A stretch of 48,135 nt of DNA, taken from the NCBI GenBank assembly GCA_022825385.1, contig JAJDWX010000016.1:1-48135 (forward strand), in the 5' to 3' direction. This DNA comes from Rhodothermales bacterium. Lineage in GTDB: Bacteria; Bacteroidota; Rhodothermia; Rhodothermales; VXPQ01. The position numbers were made by a program, and so were the translations under genes. This document shows, in pieces, positions 38,026-46,116 of the stretch (the stretch's first letter is position 1; each line of letters starts with the position of its first letter). A model generated the notes under the pieces. The model did no database searches. It was not told the origin of the DNA and worked only from the letters and a program-made list of their open reading frames with translations.

Positions 38026-38802
38026 TCATTTTATCCCCCCCTTTTCATGCAGCATCACAAGGCTATCATCCAGTCCGTGCCGCAGGATACTCAGACGAGG
38101 CGAGAGCGACGCCACATGTTCGGCTGAGATATGGGTCAATCGCAATGGAAAGATGCTCGGGCTGTCGAGCAGTTCGTTTATGGCGGCCGACCCGTTCGCC
38201 CGGGCGCGGAGAGATGCTTCCATCATCCAGGCGATGAGTTTGGGTTCTTCAACCAGATAGTGGTTTCCTTGGCTGTAAGTCCCCTTGACTTGCGTTTCTT
38301 CCAGTACGTCCCAGTCGATAAAGCTGCGCAGGACATATCGAACTCGACGAGAGACCGTTTCGCGCTCTCCGTATTGTTCCCGCGCTCTGCGTTGTATTTG
38401 ATCGCTTGCCGCCGTGCCTTGAAGTCTGAGTAGCCGTCCTGTACGGGCGGCTACCGAACCCCAAAAAGGGTAAACCGCCATGGTCATGCCCCAGTGAACT
38501 GCAATATGGTCTTTTTTAGGCAGGCTCGAGAGTAGATTAAGCCCATCCTTCCGAAGGGGATGGAGAGTGTCTGAAACGCCCGTCCAAATCCTCAACAAAA
38601 TGGTGATTGTTTTGTCGAGCGAACCTCGCACATTGGCGTTGCTGGAGCGGAACGCATCTGAAAGTTCCTCCTGCAGGATAGGTTTAATTTCATGCGCTTC
38701 GTTCCCGGCCAGGACCAGATAGGCAGTTCGCTCTAACCAGTCAAGCCGAACAAGGCGATCAAGGCCAATCTGGCTGTGCCGTCGGTCTATCCCTGTGCTC
38801 AT
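38026..38802 (-). CDS. Unknown protein coupled to PglZ
   Basis: I do not recognise this 258-residue soluble protein. Its middle (RRAREQYGERETVSRRVRYV, then FIDWDVLEETQVKGTY) looks like a winged-helix segment with a wing rich in polar residues. The N-terminal third is helical. Its ATG overlaps the pglZ stop by four bases (ATGA at 38799-38802), so it is co-translated with PglZ and very likely a partner. It sits where type 3 BREX loci carry brxA, and BrxA is a winged-helix DNA-binding protein, but I see no convincing DUF1819 signature. It is intact, unlike most of the island upstream. Confidence 0.7.
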   Translation of the reverse strand: MSTGIDRRHSQIGLDRLVRLDWLERTAYLVLAGNEAHEIKPILQEELSDAFRSSNANVRGSLDKTITILLRIWTGVSDTLHPLRKDGLNLLSSLPKKDHIAVHWGMTMAVYPFWGSVAARTGRLLRLQGTAASDQIQRRAREQYGERETVSRRVRYVLRSFIDWDVLEETQVKGTYSQGNHYLVEEPKLIAWMMEASLRARANGSAAINELLDSPSIFPLRLTHISAEHVASLSPRLSILRHGLDDSLVMLHEKGGIK

Positions 38803-40805
38803 GTGTCCCTCCTTTCGATCTGAACAAGCGGGACGATGAGTTCTTCGAGGGTGGCGCCGCCATGGCCGACAAGGTTTTCGGTCTTGCGGACAAACGCGGC
38901 GCGAGGTGGAGCAAGCAAGGGAAGATAATCCTCGGGCAGTCCGATAGGCGGCCATTCCAAAGCGTCCGGGAATCGTTCCTTGATCCGACCTCGCAGCAAG
39001 GAATCGGGATAAATCCGAGCGCGTTCTCCGCGCAGGTCAGCCACGGCTCCTTCGGCAGGTCGGCCACAACCCGATGCTTCGATATTGCCGTGATCCGACG
39101 ACAGGTAAGCACAAAATCCGTTCTCCAGAAGCAAGTCGAACAGTTGCGTCATGAATGGCCCACTGGCCCACTGGCGAACCTGGTTGTGCATGCCTGCTGC
39201 GCCAAGTTCCATGCCGTGCATGATCTTGTCCACTTTATCGACAACCAGACCGACAACCCGCGTCTTGGGCCGGGCAACAATCTCTTCCACCCTTTCCAGT
39301 GTGCCGTTTCCCAATCCCTTGGCATATGCGACTTCCTGCTCTGTCAGCCCCTGGTCGATCCAAAACTGCGTCCACAACACCGGTTCTTTGTCGGTGGCAT
39401 GGATGCTGTTCGGGAAATAGATCGGTGGTTTTCCTGCAAAGGCAGCCTGTCGCGAAACAGACGTGATGGTTGGTATCCAGGCGAACACCGCGTTCTCGCG
39501 AAAGCGGTAATTGGGTCGCAGCCTGGCGATTTCCTTTCGGATGACGATCCACTGATCCAGCGCAAGGCCGTCCACCACGACGAACGCAGCTTTGTGATGC
39601 CTGGCGTCGTTGACGTGGCGGGCGAGGAAACGGGGAATATGGTGGAGCATAACCGGAGGAACTGGAGGCAGGTTGATCAATCCTGCGTAGCGTTTTGTCA
39701 GCCACGGCACAAGTGCGGCATCAATCTGAGATTGAAGCGCTCTCATCTTCTGATGCACCGATTCCGGCAGCGCCTCATTTGTATCCAGTACCAACGCCAT
39801 AAGCCCCGCCCATGTTTTGGCAAATTGGAGCCAGCCATCGTACCGTGTTTCCTCATTCGGAATATCGGAGGCCAAGGTATTGAGGAGTCCCTCCACGCGC
39901 CTCCCCCGGTCCGCCCGCTCGTTGGTTCGGATGCCGATGGCGAGCCAGGTTCTGGAGAACGACTCGGCTTGATCATGGGAAACCGTTTCAAGCAGTCCTT
40001 CGACAAAGAGGTTGTCGATGTAGACACGGATGTCGTCATGGTCGAAGGGCAAGTTCGAAGGGCCGGGATACGTAAGGCCGTAAGGCTTCTCATCCTCGTG
40101 AACGCTGGTGGTATCCTGGGTTGCCGACCGATTTAAGAAGATGGGCCAGCGTTCCTGGAGAAATGCGAAAAAGGCTTCTCGATCCGGGGTAATCGTTTCA
40201 AGGGGCCACTCTTCAAAACCGCTCTGTTGGCGCAGGACCTGAATAAAGCGCTTGTCAAGCAAAGCAGGGATGCGTTGCTCCCGATAGTGGCGGCGCAGCA
40301 GCGCCCGCAGCAGATCGGACGGCTTGCGAATGAGTTCCGGGGCGATCTCAAAGACATGGCGCAGAACGAATTCCTTTGTAGCGTTGTCGCCCAGTACTCC
40401 GGGGACGTGCCGCTTCTGGGCTTCGTAGAGCGCATCCAGATCCCCCCGATCCAAGGCGGTCACGATTGGATAGCTCAGGTTGGGGAATATCTCCCCGAGG
40501 TTGAATGAAAGTGTCCGACCGGTCTGGAGCAGATCGTATGGCAGACAGCCGAGGTCGCTTTCCGCAGAGCGTAGCACGACTACCAAATCCGTCTGATCAC
40601 CCTGGTCCCAGCGGGAGCGAAATCCGGATTCGTAAGCGTAGCGAAAGGTGACATGATCCTCGAACGGAACCAATTCAAAACCACGCTCGCGTATGTCTGC
40701 AAGAACGCCTTCTTCCAGGAGCAGACCATCCGGATCGGCAACCAGGGTCAGCCGGGCGACATGTGGAGCGAACTCCCTGAGAATCTGATCGCGCCAGTTA
40801 TTCAT
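38799..40805 (-). CDS. pglZ: PglZ-domain phosphatase, BREX type 3-like
   Basis: PglZ is an alkaline-phosphatase-superfamily protein central to BREX phage-defence loci. This 668-residue protein starts MNNWRDQILREF after a strong Shine-Dalgarno (ggaggt at 40809-40814). The phosphatase-fold half has VVVDGLALDQW near residue 410 and LSSDHGNIEA near 570, the metal-site motifs. The length and the N-terminal half (ADPDGLLLEEGVLADI, FNLGEIFPNLSYP) match my memory of type 3 BREX PglZ better than the longer type 1 form. The open frame reaches 41027, but this is read-through of the duplicated leader in another frame. No brxC or pglX lies nearby, so it is an orphan or belongs to a reduced system with the coupled downstream gene. 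Confidence 0.88.
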   Translation of the reverse strand: MNNWRDQILREFAPHVARLTLVADPDGLLLEEGVLADIRERGFELVPFEDHVTFRYAYESGFRSRWDQGDQTDLVVVLRSAESDLGCLPYDLLQTGRTLSFNLGEIFPNLSYPIVTALDRGDLDALYEAQKRHVPGVLGDNATKEFVLRHVFEIAPELIRKPSDLLRALLRRHYREQRIPALLDKRFIQVLRQQSGFEEWPLETITPDREAFFAFLQERWPIFLNRSATQDTTSVHEDEKPYGLTYPGPSNLPFDHDDIRVYIDNLFVEGLLETVSHDQAESFSRTWLAIGIRTNERADRGRRVEGLLNTLASDIPNEETRYDGWLQFAKTWAGLMALVLDTNEALPESVHQKMRALQSQIDAALVPWLTKRYAGLINLPPVPPVMLHHIPRFLARHVNDARHHKAAFVVVDGLALDQWIVIRKEIARLRPNYRFRENAVFAWIPTITSVSRQAAFAGKPPIYFPNSIHATDKEPVLWTQFWIDQGLTEQEVAYAKGLGNGTLERVEEIVARPKTRVVGLVVDKVDKIMHGMELGAAGMHNQVRQWASGPFMTQLFDLLLENGFCAYLSSDHGNIEASGCGRPAEGAVADLRGERARIYPDSLLRGRIKERFPDALEWPPIGLPEDYLPLLAPPRAAFVRKTENLVGHGGATLEELIVPLVQIERRDT

Positions 40806-41034
40806 GGGTACCTCCTTCAACCCGTAAGATAACGAGAGGCGCCATTTCCGGCAGTGGTCCTGTTTCTGAATCCTGCAGGGGGGCGAACCTGGATACAGGG
40901 ACGCGGACCACCGAATCGCGGCCGGGCAGCCATACCCGACAGGTCGTCTCACCCCAAAGCGCCTGGGTCTTGATGACCTGGCAATTTTGTCCATGGTCCA
41001 GACTGAAATACCAACTGTTTGTATCAATCTTCAT
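40798..41034 (-). pseudogene. N-terminal remnant of SNF2/BrxH-type helicase (copy 1)
   Basis: A 78-codon frame from MKIDTNSWYFSLDHGQ continues CRVWLPGRDSVVRVPVSRF, a small beta-barrel-like opening found before the helicase core of large SNF2-type enzymes of defence loci. In type 3 BREX the helicase gene directly precedes pglZ, as this does. Everything after about residue 65 is missing and the frame ends in GGTHE and a stop that overlaps the pglZ start. Met at 41049 is an alternative start. It could alternatively be a genuine small protein kept in two copies. Confidence 0.5.
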
Positions 41035-41070
41035 TATGAAACAGTTCACTAGGTTCCAGGGTTTTTTCTT
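40802..41070 (-). repeat. 270-bp direct repeat, copy 1 (before pglZ)
   Basis: This stretch matches 44006-44275 at roughly nine of ten bases, in the same orientation. It includes a short end of the DUF262-type gene (aaaccctggaac), the helicase N-terminal remnant, the Shine-Dalgarno ggaggt and an ATGA start. Copy 2 has one net extra base near its end (a C-run), which shifts the frame of the remnant. The two copies bracket the helicase-nuclease gene and IS3 relic. Confidence 0.85.
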
Positions 41071-41076
41071 GAGTTC

Positions 41077-43704
41077 TCAACTGCTGCTTCCCCTACCGCC
41101 ACGTTTTTCCATGTCGGCAACAGGCATTTGGGAAAGCCTTTTCATCAATTGCATAGGTGTAAGGCTGCCCGCTGTGAGTTCGCGTGATAGCTCCTCAAGG
41201 ACTTTCTCATCACTGAGATCGGTCAACTTCGATCTGACTCGACGGAGGATGCCAGCAGTCTCGTCAAACAATTCCTTCAGTTGTGCAGGGGTCACATGGT
41301 AAAGAGACTCAGCATGAGCAATGGCCTCTGGATATACTGCTACACGTGGGCTCTCAATCAGACAGAGAATTTTGGTATTATCTTCACACGTTCGATTGGC
41401 ACGGACCCAGTTACCGTGGCTTTTCGCCTGCCGGATGTCATTGACTCCGATAGGGTCGCTTGGCGTGTGTTCCGATTTGGCCTCATGTACTACATAGATC
41501 AGATTTCCAACTGACCAAATGCAATCAGGCGCAGCGTCTCCTTCTGGCAATTCTGAGTAGAAACCAAGCATCTCGCCTAGCCCCTTGAGTCCTTGATGAA
41601 ATGCTTTGTGCTCGGTGGATTGGATGTTATTCTTGACCTGAGTGAGTTGCTGTTCAAAACGCGGCCCGACAGCACCCCAATTTGCCAAATGCCTTCGGAT
41701 CGTCTCAACGGCTATCGCAGTTTTTTCATCGACTTCCAGAGTCTCGTCACCTGCCTCGAATGATCGCCCCAAGCGTGCAAACCAGCTAACGCCGATACAA
41801 CATCGAGCGGCACGTTTAAGGAAGTCGCGGGCGGTATCTTGATAAGCTTCCCCTCCAGTGGTCTCATAAAGAGCTATCGCTGCTTCAGCAGAAAGGTAGT
41901 ACCACCATGCTCGATATGCCTTTGTCTCATCACCACCAAGTGCGTCCGCGGCTTTTCGGGCGTGTTCAAGCGCATCCTCAAAATTGTTGCTCCACATTGC
42001 ATAGAGATAGGAAACCTCATTGGCAACCACAGAATTTAGCTTCCTTGAGATTGGGTCATCATGACGCGAACAGCCATCTCGCAGAGCGAGAATTGCAGTC
42101 TCTGCGTCTTCCCAGTCATCTGCCCTTGATAAGAACGCATTCCATAATTTCTTAAAATCTTCTGCAGATTTTTCTCTGGAATTCTCTATGCCGAATTTAA
42201 TCTCCGCCTGTAATTCCGGATTGAAGATTCGGCGGTTTTCATTCTTCAGAAGAAAATCAACCAACCGACGCCCGATCACGAACACAGCAGCATAGTCATT
42301 ATCAGATCGCGTACACCTGCCAACACCTTGGGTAAAACGCGTTATCACGCGATCTCGCAATAGCGAAAAGGCTGCTATTTTGGACCATAGGAACTTCTCC
42401 TGCAGATTGACCCCGCTGGGTAGTCCACAAAAAATCAGCAGGCGACAGGTCTCGTCAGGTAAATCTAATCCGTCGTAACGCGAAAGAAGCAAGGCGGAGT
42501 TAGTGCTGGTCAGGAATGGGTCGATACTGTCCTCAATATCATCAGCATGAAGTATTTTCATATCCAATCGATCAATAGCGTTGACCAGACCGGTAGCCTC
42601 AGAGTCATGTCGGCTAGGAACGAGAATAAGGCTTCTGTTGAACTCTTGCACCGCATCTTCTACAACTTCAATCATCTCCTCGCTAGTCATTGATAGTTCC
42701 GGAATGAGGAATAATCTCCGTCCGCTACCTCGTTTGTCCCATCCTGAGGGAAGAGGCAGACGCTTTATGGATTTGACACCGGTAATACGTTCCAGTTCTC
42801 CACCAGCCCCTAAAGTTGCCGACATATAAACCCTTTGAGCCGCCTGCTCGAATGGTGCATGAGTTTGAGTTGGTGGAATGAATGGCCGGATGAGAATTGC
42901 ATCCCAAGAAATAAAAAAATTACAGGCGGCGAGGTGATCTTTAACAACGTCCCACGCGTACCATGGCGATGTTTTTTCTTCGAGATTCTCGTCAAGCAAG
43001 TCTCTGATAGCATCCGCGTGTTTACGGATTGAAGCGCCAGCGACTATCTCTATCATGCCGGCTTTCTTTGGGTCCCAATCGGTATGACCTGAAATGTCTG
43101 AATAAAATCCTGAATCAAATGCATTTCGCAGAAGTTCCACAATCGCAAGGTAGGTGTCAGGACTGGCTGAGCGAGATATTTTCACGGACCACATGCTGAC
43201 CATGAAATTTTCGCCAGCATGAGCATCGTCCAGAATCAATGTCTGGGCAGCTTCTATCCGTGGATTGATATTGAATACCCCACTATATGTAGTTATTGCA
43301 ATAGCACGACTTGATTGATATTCGCTGAACTCTTGCGGAGGGTAGTCGCGTTGCTTTCCAACCAATACGTAGGCTCTAATTCCATATTCATTTGCCTGCG
43401 ACCCAACTTGGCGAGCAAGCTGGCGAGTGGGGCATAGGTAAGCTACACGAGTACCAAGTGCCTGTCGTCGCCATTCTGCGATTAGTAATCCTACAAGCGT
43501 CTTCCCTGATCCCGTAGGAAGCTCAATAGCAACATCTCGTTCTTCAAGATGTTGCTGGTGGTAGGCCCGAAGAAGATCGGCCTGATGTGACCAAAGGTGC
43601 TTAATGTCTGGAGCCCTTCCTCGCAAGTTGTGGAAAAGTGTTTCTGGATCAGCAGGCCCGGCTGTTTTGGTGAAGTCGGTTTTGAAAATTGATTTATTAG
43701 CCAT
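41077..43704 (-). CDS. DEAD/DEAH helicase with C-terminal PD-(D/E)XK-like nuclease site
   Basis: This 875-residue superfamily 2 protein has a Q-like motif HLWSHQADLL (about 37-46), Walker A ELPTGSGKT (61-69), motif II LILDDAHAGE (156-165; DDAH), motif III MSATLG (294-299), the motif V region LSRYDGLDLPDETCR (408-421) and motif VI QGVGRCTRSD (459-468). After a helical middle the C-terminus reads APDCIWSVGN, then VVHEAKSE: an Asp about 14 residues before Glu-Ala-Lys, followed by a DIRQAKSH helix. This is the layout of a PD-(D/E)XK nuclease. The gene is visibly A/T-richer than its neighbours, suggesting separate acquisition. Its start is 5 bases from the IS3 relic. It is a probable antiphage helicase-nuclease. 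Confidence 0.85.
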   Translation of the reverse strand: MANKSIFKTDFTKTAGPADPETLFHNLRGRAPDIKHLWSHQADLLRAYHQQHLEERDVAIELPTGSGKTLVGLLIAEWRRQALGTRVAYLCPTRQLARQVGSQANEYGIRAYVLVGKQRDYPPQEFSEYQSSRAIAITTYSGVFNINPRIEAAQTLILDDAHAGENFMVSMWSVKISRSASPDTYLAIVELLRNAFDSGFYSDISGHTDWDPKKAGMIEIVAGASIRKHADAIRDLLDENLEEKTSPWYAWDVVKDHLAACNFFISWDAILIRPFIPPTQTHAPFEQAAQRVYMSATLGAGGELERITGVKSIKRLPLPSGWDKRGSGRRLFLIPELSMTSEEMIEVVEDAVQEFNRSLILVPSRHDSEATGLVNAIDRLDMKILHADDIEDSIDPFLTSTNSALLLSRYDGLDLPDETCRLLIFCGLPSGVNLQEKFLWSKIAAFSLLRDRVITRFTQGVGRCTRSDNDYAAVFVIGRRLVDFLLKNENRRIFNPELQAEIKFGIENSREKSAEDFKKLWNAFLSRADDWEDAETAILALRDGCSRHDDPISRKLNSVVANEVSYLYAMWSNNFEDALEHARKAADALGGDETKAYRAWWYYLSAEAAIALYETTGGEAYQDTARDFLKRAARCCIGVSWFARLGRSFEAGDETLEVDEKTAIAVETIRRHLANWGAVGPRFEQQLTQVKNNIQSTEHKAFHQGLKGLGEMLGFYSELPEGDAAPDCIWSVGNLIYVVHEAKSEHTPSDPIGVNDIRQAKSHGNWVRANRTCEDNTKILCLIESPRVAVYPEAIAHAESLYHVTPAQLKELFDETAGILRRVRSKLTDLSDEKVLEELSRELTAGSLTPMQLMKRLSQMPVADMEKRGGRGSSS

Positions 43705-43709
43705 TATGT

Positions 43710-44003
43710 AGAAGTGGTCCGAAAAACTGGACAGGCGTTTAGGTTTAGGATTGCGATGGTTTACGCCGCCTTCGCCAGCGGCTTTCGTCTGTAGTATACG
43801 TCGTCGAGCGTGAGGTTGTCAAGGCCTTGATGCGGGCGTTCTTCGTTGAAGTAGCAGACGTAGGTGGCGATCCCCTTTTTTGCCTCGGCCACCGTCTCGT
43901 ACGCATGCCGGTACGCTTCCTCCTTCTTGGGGCTGCGCCAGAAGCGCGCACTGCCGGACGATAAACAAGCGATGATCGCGATTGATCTGGTCGCTGCGTG
44001 TAC
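43710..44003 (-). mobile_element. Internally deleted IS3-family relic
   Basis: One end (agaagtggtccg then aaaaactggacagg from 43710) matches the end of the IS3 element at 47163. The body keeps the last ~65 codons of orfB (WRSPKKEEAYRH, YFNEERPHQGLDNLTLDDVY, RRKPLAKAA) fused to the first ~40 bases around the orfB start (gaccagatcaatcgcgat). The central integrase core, including the first two catalytic residues, is gone, so it cannot move by itself. It lies directly before the helicase-nuclease start and may now supply its promoter. Confidence 0.8.
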
Positions 44004-44005
44004 AC

Positions 44006-44275
44006 TCATGAGCACCTCCTTCAACCCGTAAGATAGGGGAAGGGGCCATTTCTGGTAGCGGTTCCTGTTCCTGAATCCTCCAGGGGGGCGAGTCTGGAGG
44101 CAGGGGCCCGGACCACCGAATCGCGGCCGGGCAGCCATACCCGACAGGTCGTCTCGCCCCATAGCGCCTGGGTCTCAATGACCTGGCAATTTTGTCCATG
44201 GTCCAGACTGAAATACCAACTGTTTGTATCAATCTTCATTATGAAGCAGTTCATTCAGTTCCAGGGTTTTTCCTT
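44006..44275 (-). repeat. 270-bp direct repeat, copy 2
   Basis: Partner of 40802-41070. Here the repeat joins on its upstream side, in frame, to the full 3' end of the DUF262/HNH gene, so this is the more original junction. On its downstream side the shared Shine-Dalgarno and ATGA are followed by atgagtgtacac and then the IS3 relic rather than by pglZ. Confidence 0.85.
44021..44239 (-). pseudogene. N-terminal remnant of SNF2/BrxH-type helicase (copy 2)
   Basis: Same opening as copy 1 (MKIDTNSWYFSLDHGQ, CRVWLPGRDSVVRAPASRL), with a few substitutions, then a one-base frame change that ends the frame after GPFPYLTG. Its ATG overlaps the end of the DUF262/HNH gene by 11 bases, indicating that the lost helicase was translated right after that gene. 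The helicase body is absent. Confidence 0.5.
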
Positions 44276-45184
44276 CACATGCCTGCTGTGCCGCATCCGC
44301 CAGGATGGTTGCCCTAGCGGATAGGAACGCATCGTAGTCCGTTTTTACTCGGGTACGCCGTTCCTGATCTTCGAGACCGTCATATCCTACAGCGAGTTTG
44401 CTGTACGGGATCAGGTGGGTCTTCAGTCGGCGGCGTAATTCCTTCTCGCCAAGGGCGCTGTTGTCCGACCGCTCCTTCAGGTAGGCAATCGGGTCCTTAT
44501 TGCTTATGGTTCGGTTCGTACGCCATGTGACCAAGGCGCAGTTGAGTGCCCGAAAGGCCTCTTTATTCGGAACCTCGGCATCTTCCAAGGTCGATGCCGG
44601 AAACAGGTGATGGTATTCCCGCGGGTGTTCTTTGGAGGTAATGGTTGCAATCGAAGCCCGTGCGCCGTCCGCCAGGTCCTCAGCACCACATTTGATCTGC
44701 AGAGCTAGTAGTCCGCGCCCGAGGATGGTCTTGCGCTTGGGCCAGTCGGCCTGCAGCACCATTTCTGGGGTCGGAAGCGGATAAGAGTCAGCATTCAGGA
44801 TAGGCACGACATCCTCATCGGCGCCGTCCCGAAGCACCTTCTTCAATCCACGGAAATCCTGAAGGGCATTCGATGTTGATGACTGTTCGTACCGTGATGT
44901 TAAAAAAGCACGCCAAAGGAATTTACGCAGCAGGTACCGGGCGTTGCCAAGTTGGTCGGGTTGCGTCGGTAGATGCTCCCAGATCGCCGCGATGATCGGG
45001 ATCGCCGTATAGCTGGGTAACCGCTGAGCGTCGAATATGGTTTCGTCCTCCAAAAAGCGGACGACCCCCTTAATACCTTTGACCACCGTGTCCCACTCGT
45101 CAATCATCTTGGTGTAGTTGATACCGCGATACCCGGCTTGGCTTGGAATACGGTCCTGCCGCAGCGCCACCACATCCAATACTA
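44229..45184 (-). pseudogene. 5'-truncated DUF262/GmrSD-like protein with HNH-type C-terminus
   Basis: The surviving ~317 residues are the middle and C-terminal part of a DUF262-type protein. EYHHLFPASTLED followed by CALVTWRTNRTISNKDP is a DUF1524/HNH-like nuclease motif as in GmrSD-type, modification-dependent restriction enzymes (BrxU, a BREX-linked enzyme, has this architecture). The frame is open up to the IS5 end (LVLDVVALRQDR at the junction), and the N-terminal DUF262 NTPase part is missing. A TTG at 45179 could restart translation. DNA beyond the IS does not continue this gene, so a deletion accompanied the insertion. Confidence 0.7.
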
Positions 45185-45955: not shown

Positions 45956-46116
45956 GTCTCTGAAATTTGCTTTAGATTGCAGCGTTCATAGACAACGAAA
46001 CAAAGGAAATCATGTTCTCGAATAGTGTTAACAGGCCCTAATCAGGTAGGGCGAAACGGGTTTCCGCCCCGCCGAAAAGGATACGCCGCCCCGTCGATCC
46101 GCGCAAGCCCCCGGAG

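Follow-up and report, generated by a model that had tools for sequence, protein, structure and literature searches.

Hna is an anti-phage gene that was described in 2023 as acting by itself, and both structures and biochemistry have become available since then (PMC13381803, PMC12445080). The protein from Sinorhizobium meliloti, the one family member for which this is known, is a 3'-5' single-stranded DNA (ssDNA) exonuclease that is inhibited by ATP, is activated by a phage ssDNA-binding protein, and acts through abortive infection (PMC13381803, PMC12445080). Here we describe a gene of this family in a 48,135-nt stretch of DNA from a Rhodothermales bacterium (contig JAJDWX010000016.1, assembly GCA_022825385.1), which is called the window below. 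We consider it quite probable that this gene encodes a divergent member of the Hna family (PDC-S28 in PADLOC), with a DinG/XPD-like superfamily 2 (SF2) ATPase and a PD-(D/E)XK nuclease, and that it is now part of a bacteriophage exclusion (BREX) type 3 operon, where it occupies a cargo slot that follows pglXI and would serve an Hna-like, second-line role.

Other described systems share parts of this arrangement. BxaP (PMC10799925) is likewise an accessory, probably abortive gene reported from BREX type 3, in the slot that separates pglXI from brxHII, but it belongs to another protein family and lacks the helicase-nuclease architecture. The main text of a recent paper describes auxiliary nuclease effectors embedded in BREX operons, including PD-(D/E)XK nucleases coupled to SF2 helicases, and proposes back-up restriction as their role (Rakesh and Krishnan 2026, PMC12839542). 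The word Hna does not occur in that main text, and the supplementary neighbourhood table may already list the arrangement found here. Hachiman (HamAB) and Gabija (GajAB) also direct a helicase and a nuclease jointly against phages, and in other loci this BREX-3 slot holds Gabija or a Hachiman-like pair. However, these systems use two chains, and their similarity to the window protein is weak and confined to the helicase motifs (HamB, E ~2e-3).

A single-chain protein of the Hna family

The initial annotation of the window had proposed that one gene joins an SF2 helicase part and a PD-(D/E)XK nuclease in one chain, and this is borne out by sequence motifs, by Pfam matches (DEAD, 8e-15; Helicase_C_2, 2e-8) and by a predicted fold. 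It had listed SF2 motifs I, II, III, V, and VI in the N-terminal half, and all are indeed legible in the 875-aa protein, with motif V present only in a V-like form. In addition to motifs II and VI, given below, these include TGSGKT (motif I, residues 64-69), SAT (motif III, 295-297), and YDGLDLP (V-like, 410-416). The main features are as follows.

41077..43704, minus strand: coding sequence of the Hna-family SF2 helicase / PD-(D/E)XK nuclease; 875 aa, ATG start, intact open reading frame
43498..43518, minus strand: SF2 motif I (Walker A), PTGSGKT, residues 63-69, read from the sequence; T64, G65, G67, K68, and T69 invariant
43219..43230, minus strand: SF2 motif II, DDAH, residues 159-162; D159 and D160 invariant
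42307..42330, minus strand: SF2 motif VI, QGVGRCTR, residues 459-466; Q459, G462, R463, and R466 invariant
41353..41610, minus strand: PD-(D/E)XK nuclease core, residues 699-784, aligned to Hna catalytic residues D713/E727/K729
41524-41526, 41482-41484, and 41476-41478, minus strand: codons of nuclease residues D727, E741, and K743, respectively

The nuclease motif comprises P726-D727, E741-x-K743, and Q759. In an alignment with 27 relatives, D727 never varies, and P726, E741, K743, and Q759 are each conserved in at least 90% of sequences. The residues first named as D728 and K744 are D727 and K743, the original numbering being one too high. An AlphaFold2 model built with the 27-relative alignment (pLDDT 85.6, pTM 0.86) predicts the C-terminal order helix 699-712, strand 716-718, strand 728-732, strand 736-742, helix 754-770, and strand 778-784, which is that of a PD-(D/E)XK core. 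The predicted fold of the C-terminus and the conservation of Asp, Glu, and Lys, on which the initial annotation had staked its nuclease assignment, are both as it had supposed. The middle region (residues ~500-695) is entirely helical.

The window protein is a member of the Hna family. PADLOC models for PDC-S28 match it over its full length with 411 bits (residues 12-866) and 391 bits, and S. meliloti Hna, whose gene we recovered from pSymA for comparison, matches the same models with 865 and 310 bits. A literature search on the term PDC-S28 found no description of this family. The best sequence match in the PDB is a chain common to entries 10UJ, 9YHN, and 9YKJ (phmmer, 1.5e-41); 10UJ and 9YKJ are structures of S. 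meliloti Hna (PMC13381803), and 9YHN is titled Hna monomer. This alignment pairs PDCIW..HEAKSE of the window protein with PDNLW..FECKSE of Hna, such that P726, D727, E741, and K743 correspond to P712, D713, E727, and K729, residues that matter for Hna nuclease activity (PMC13381803). The predicted structure also finds 9YHN as its best match (Foldseek 7e-38; VIA-align Z 35), with 768 residues aligned and almost the whole chain covered.

Both proteins thus have one chain with a DinG/XPD-like SF2 part, a helical middle, and a C-terminal nuclease with the P-D-E-x-K residues. Both also have an SF2 part that is devoid of Fe-S cluster cysteines, with only one cysteine (C91) lying between motifs I and II in the window protein. 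The suggestion that a one-chain helicase-nuclease could be a new kind of system does not hold, given the PDC-S28, phmmer, Foldseek, and VIA-align matches to Hna (PMC13381803). Neither does the suggestion of a novel middle region, because this region falls inside the length aligned with Hna. What is new is the BREX type 3 context of this Hna branch. The label “helicase” should be used cautiously throughout because purified Hna showed no unwinding (PMC13381803).

Identity between the window protein and S. meliloti Hna is only ~21-26% (~26% across the SF2 part). A maximum-likelihood tree of 34 members resolves two well-supported sister clades. The window clade (support 99/99) holds the window protein and members from Nostoc, Paenibacillus, and Streptomyces/Mycobacterium, whereas the other (97/90) holds S. 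meliloti Hna and members from Salmonella, Enterococcus, and Agrobacterium. The PDC-S28 scores of the window protein are well under those of most Hna-side members, which fits its place in a sister clade. Distribution is patchy, with matches in eight of 296 genomes of the organism's own phylum, half of which are short and cover helicase motifs only.

Hna-family genes are common on plasmids, with 233 records that include IncX1 Salmonella and Enterococcus plasmids, and they also occur on IMG/VR viral contigs (plasmid and viral relatives include L043-L063). Phages as carriers were considered and set aside, as a phage collection gave a single matching record, a 501-kb Salmonella contig. Three relatives carry an altered E-x-K region (FEDH in L019 from Nostoc, FEAH in L021 from Rhodobacteraceae, and SEDK in L028 from Peribacillus). 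The nuclease lysine is gone in the Nostoc and Rhodobacteraceae members, whose nuclease activity may therefore be lost or changed.

The SF2 part does resemble housekeeping enzymes. DinG, CasDinG, and XPD are the next structural matches (Z 15-18), and there are weak NCBIfam dinG_rel matches, as might be seen if the gene encoded a DinG- or ExoDinG-type repair enzyme with no role in defence. We regard this as very improbable. The DinG, CasDinG, and XPD matches cover the SF2 part alone, whereas the whole-chain match is to Hna, and the patchy distribution and the presence of relatives on plasmids, on viral contigs, and in BREX-3 operons also argue against a housekeeping function. Membership among DinG or CasDinG proteins is rejected by a dinG_rel score of 30.8 bits, where the cut-off is 547.7, and by the lack of Fe-S cysteines in the stretch from motif I to motif II.

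The gene is A/T-richer than its surroundings, as had been remarked, with a GC content of 47-50% for the Hna-family gene versus ~60% around it. Comparison with relatives gives a ratio of nonsynonymous to synonymous substitution rates (dN/dS) of ~0.07-0.14 where synonymous sites are unsaturated. Synonymous sites in this comparison are saturated or almost so, and protein identity is still 67-84%. Because dN/dS is low and the protein is this well preserved despite synonymous saturation, we conclude that the gene is maintained under purifying selection.

The BREX type 3 operon and the Hna branch within it

The defence island noted by the initial annotation can be specified as a BREX type 3 locus, in which pglZ and brxA lie directly downstream of the Hna gene. 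S. meliloti Hna, in contrast, stands alone. The surrounding features in the window are listed here.

38799..40805, minus strand: pglZ of BREX type 3 (NF033449, 846 bits; PADLOC PglZ, 1017 bits)
38026..38802, minus strand: brxA of BREX type 3 (PADLOC BrxA, 327 bits; tblastn to BrxA of L003)
40798..41049, minus strand: what remains of brxHII immediately ahead of pglZ, its first ~60 codons joined in frame to its last ~24
43761..43940, minus strand: 3' part of an IS3/IS481-type transposase gene (rve_3), flanked by the second brxHII remnant and the Hna gene
43994..44233, minus strand: second brxHII remnant, within a 270-nt direct repeat shared with 40802-41070
44229..45179, minus strand: C-terminal half of a GmrSD-type protein, whose N-terminal half is at C25:99-1064 in the same genome
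45198..46041, minus strand: IS5-family element splitting the GmrSD gene (Pfam/NCBIfam; 97.6% match to C25:1-248)

The 270-nt repeat flanks the Hna gene on both sides, and each copy encodes the first ~60 codons of brxHII. These repeats had been considered as ends of an insertion sequence (IS) and are instead brxHII remnants, which are all that is present of this gene in the window. Complete brxC and pglXI genes, with a 264-aa open reading frame before brxC, are on another contig of the same genome, C25. The first 248 nt of this contig match the window IS5 element (97.6%), and the N-terminal half of GmrSD (GmrSD_N, 7e-21) comes next. From the shared IS5 sequence and the GmrSD halves on the two contigs, the data indicate a single BREX-3 operon that is split by an IS element at an assembly break. 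The GmrSD half in the window had also been considered part of an unrelated second island; it has no credible Pfam match alone, and its identity is clear once it is joined with the half on C25. The IS5 insertion in GmrSD falls at the point where contigs C6 and C25 part, and the path of C6 past position 46041 may be another genomic place.

The six closest relatives of the window protein (L002-L007; 67-84% identity), which come from metagenome-derived genomes assigned to several phyla, all sit in BREX-3 operons as well. The Hna gene overlaps the end of pglXI by 4 nt in L002, L003, and L005, and brxHII is found alongside it in L002, L004, L005, and L007 and is absent in L003 and L006. A BREX-3 gene was near none of 39 more distant Hna-family members, for which ~2-10 kb of flanking sequence was in view. 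Conversely, none of 32 sampled BREX-3 pglZ loci from two phyla carried an Hna gene, with the interval after pglXI wholly in view in ~20 of these. Because the association is missing from both samples, Hna-bearing BREX-3 is a rare variant carried by one Hna lineage. Matches below the cut-off to the BREX-3 PglZ model in the organism's own phylum were excluded; they are nearly universal and of a length that suggests a PorX-type response regulator.

These observations bear on whether the gene might simply be a stand-alone Hna that adjoins BREX-3 genes in a defence island, its neighbourhood having no functional meaning. This is a real but somewhat less than even prospect in our judgment. S. meliloti Hna works alone (PMC12445080, PMC13381803), the slot holds many unrelated cargo genes, BxaP from the same slot protects without BREX (PMC10799925), and pglXI is no longer adjacent to the Hna gene in the window. 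Against these facts stand the BREX-3 operons of the window protein and all six closest relatives versus none among the 39 distant members, the 4 nt shared with pglXI in those relatives that were checked, and the grouping of the BREX-embedded members in a single clade (support 100/100).

The same loci also raise the possibility that the Hna-type enzyme has taken over the motor role of BrxHII in BREX-3, with BREX restriction running through it. The Hna gene does lie between pglXI and pglZ, which is the place of brxHII, and brxHII itself has been lost or cut down in the window and is missing from L003 and L006. Yet four relatives carry both genes, and so few loci cannot demonstrate an exchange. 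Although BrxHII is an SF2 superfamily helicase of the same operon, it is a Swi2/Snf2-family protein of different architecture, with Tudor and inactive nuclease domains. According to PMC12839542, it is present in 77% of type 3 systems and is thus missing from ~23% anyway. Replacement therefore seems unlikely to us. That the window protein is itself BrxHII is ruled out, as its PADLOC matches include no BrxHII family.

Cargo in the interval after pglXI

The interval after pglXI exceeds 1 kb in 17 of the 19 sampled loci in which it could be measured, and PADLOC names some of its occupants, up to brxHII, as Gabija GajA and GajB, IetS, PDC-M23 (Hachiman-like), AbiU, PsyrT, and an AriA-like ATPase. 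Among loci L074-L104, examples of the interval are L081:6622-10211, L086:6431-10452, and L074:6424-10072. The cargo includes a whole Gabija system (GajAB), IetS beside an AAA ATPase, PDC-M23AB, and AbiU/AIPR. HEPN-type genes (DUF3644, AbiU2) and GmrSD are found around the Hna gene.

Duplicates of the pglXI 3' end or the brxHII 5' end adjoin the cargo in the window and in several other loci (L002/L007, L003, L077, L078, and L099), at the following positions.

Window 40858-41049 and 43994-44233: extra fragments of brxHII 5' or pglXI 3' sequence
L002:5946-6247 and L003:10649-10837: extra fragments of the same kinds
L077:4774-4857, L078:8726-8797, and L099:6573-6713: extra fragments of the same kinds

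Such fragments are the scars expected if cargo were swapped or stacked by recombination, although only a few loci inform this view. We find the case evenly balanced for a broader proposal, in which the interval is a general exchange slot where whole defence systems (Gabija, ietAS, Hachiman-like, AbiU/AIPR, GmrSD, Hna, and others) are stacked by recombination that leaves pglXI and brxHII scars, and where one Hna lineage has become fixed as a translationally coupled back-up effector of BREX-3.

Elsewhere in the operon, a protein of 628-630 aa with a Schlafen/AlbA_2-HATPase-Fic-like_C arrangement is encoded between brxC and pglXI (L113:3933-5816, minus strand, and L003:3208-5097; 72% identical). 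The brxC-pglXI interval, occupied in this way in both the window's genome (L113) and L003, is another conserved location for accessory genes of the operon.

Proposed mechanism and implications

The most likely function of the window protein is that of a back-up, probably abortive, ssDNA exonuclease of the BREX-3 island. We infer its activity and regulation from the biochemistry of Hna and its division of labour with BREX from the genomic setting. The SF2 part would bind ATP and ssDNA, keeping the nuclease off at normal ATP levels. A phage signal, which in the case of Hna is a phage ssDNA-binding protein, would then free the nuclease to degrade DNA with free 3' ssDNA ends in the 3' to 5' direction. 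Phage replication would halt, and the infected cell would probably be lost. Within a BREX-3 operon, this response would form a second line once the BREX layer has been bypassed or blocked.

Several points weigh against this reading of a BREX-embedded, Hna-like effector. Given the low identity to Hna and the sister-clade position, regulation of the window protein may differ from that of Hna. Among the Hna dimer-loop residues T30, D31, and P34, just D31 is retained (T30 and P34 are Pro and His, respectively), and at the ATP site Q39 is kept and R36 is replaced by Trp. These columns, Q39 excepted, vary among Hna-side relatives too. Because the dimer-loop and R36 positions are poorly conserved, the regulation of Hna cannot be transferred with confidence. 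The BREX neighbours of the close relatives may partly reflect shared descent, and these relatives are metagenome-derived, with identical proteins in L002 and L007 from two bins. The Hna gene of L006 (a Terriglobia bin) is interrupted by an IS after ~50 codons (L006:6366-10463), and from its sequence this copy is probably broken. Lastly, the window operon is damaged, with brxHII remnants and a GmrSD gene split by an IS, and the island may be decaying.

The identification of this protein supplies a candidate name and a testable mechanism, that of an Hna-type, ATP-gated ssDNA exonuclease, for a PADLOC family that is still listed as unnamed. It also reveals that the Hna family contains another deep clade, which differs from the one studied to date. 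Finally, other defence systems are carried as cargo at a defined site of BREX type 3 operons, the interval that follows pglXI. Systematic reading of this interval may therefore uncover new back-up systems and reveal how layered immunity is assembled.
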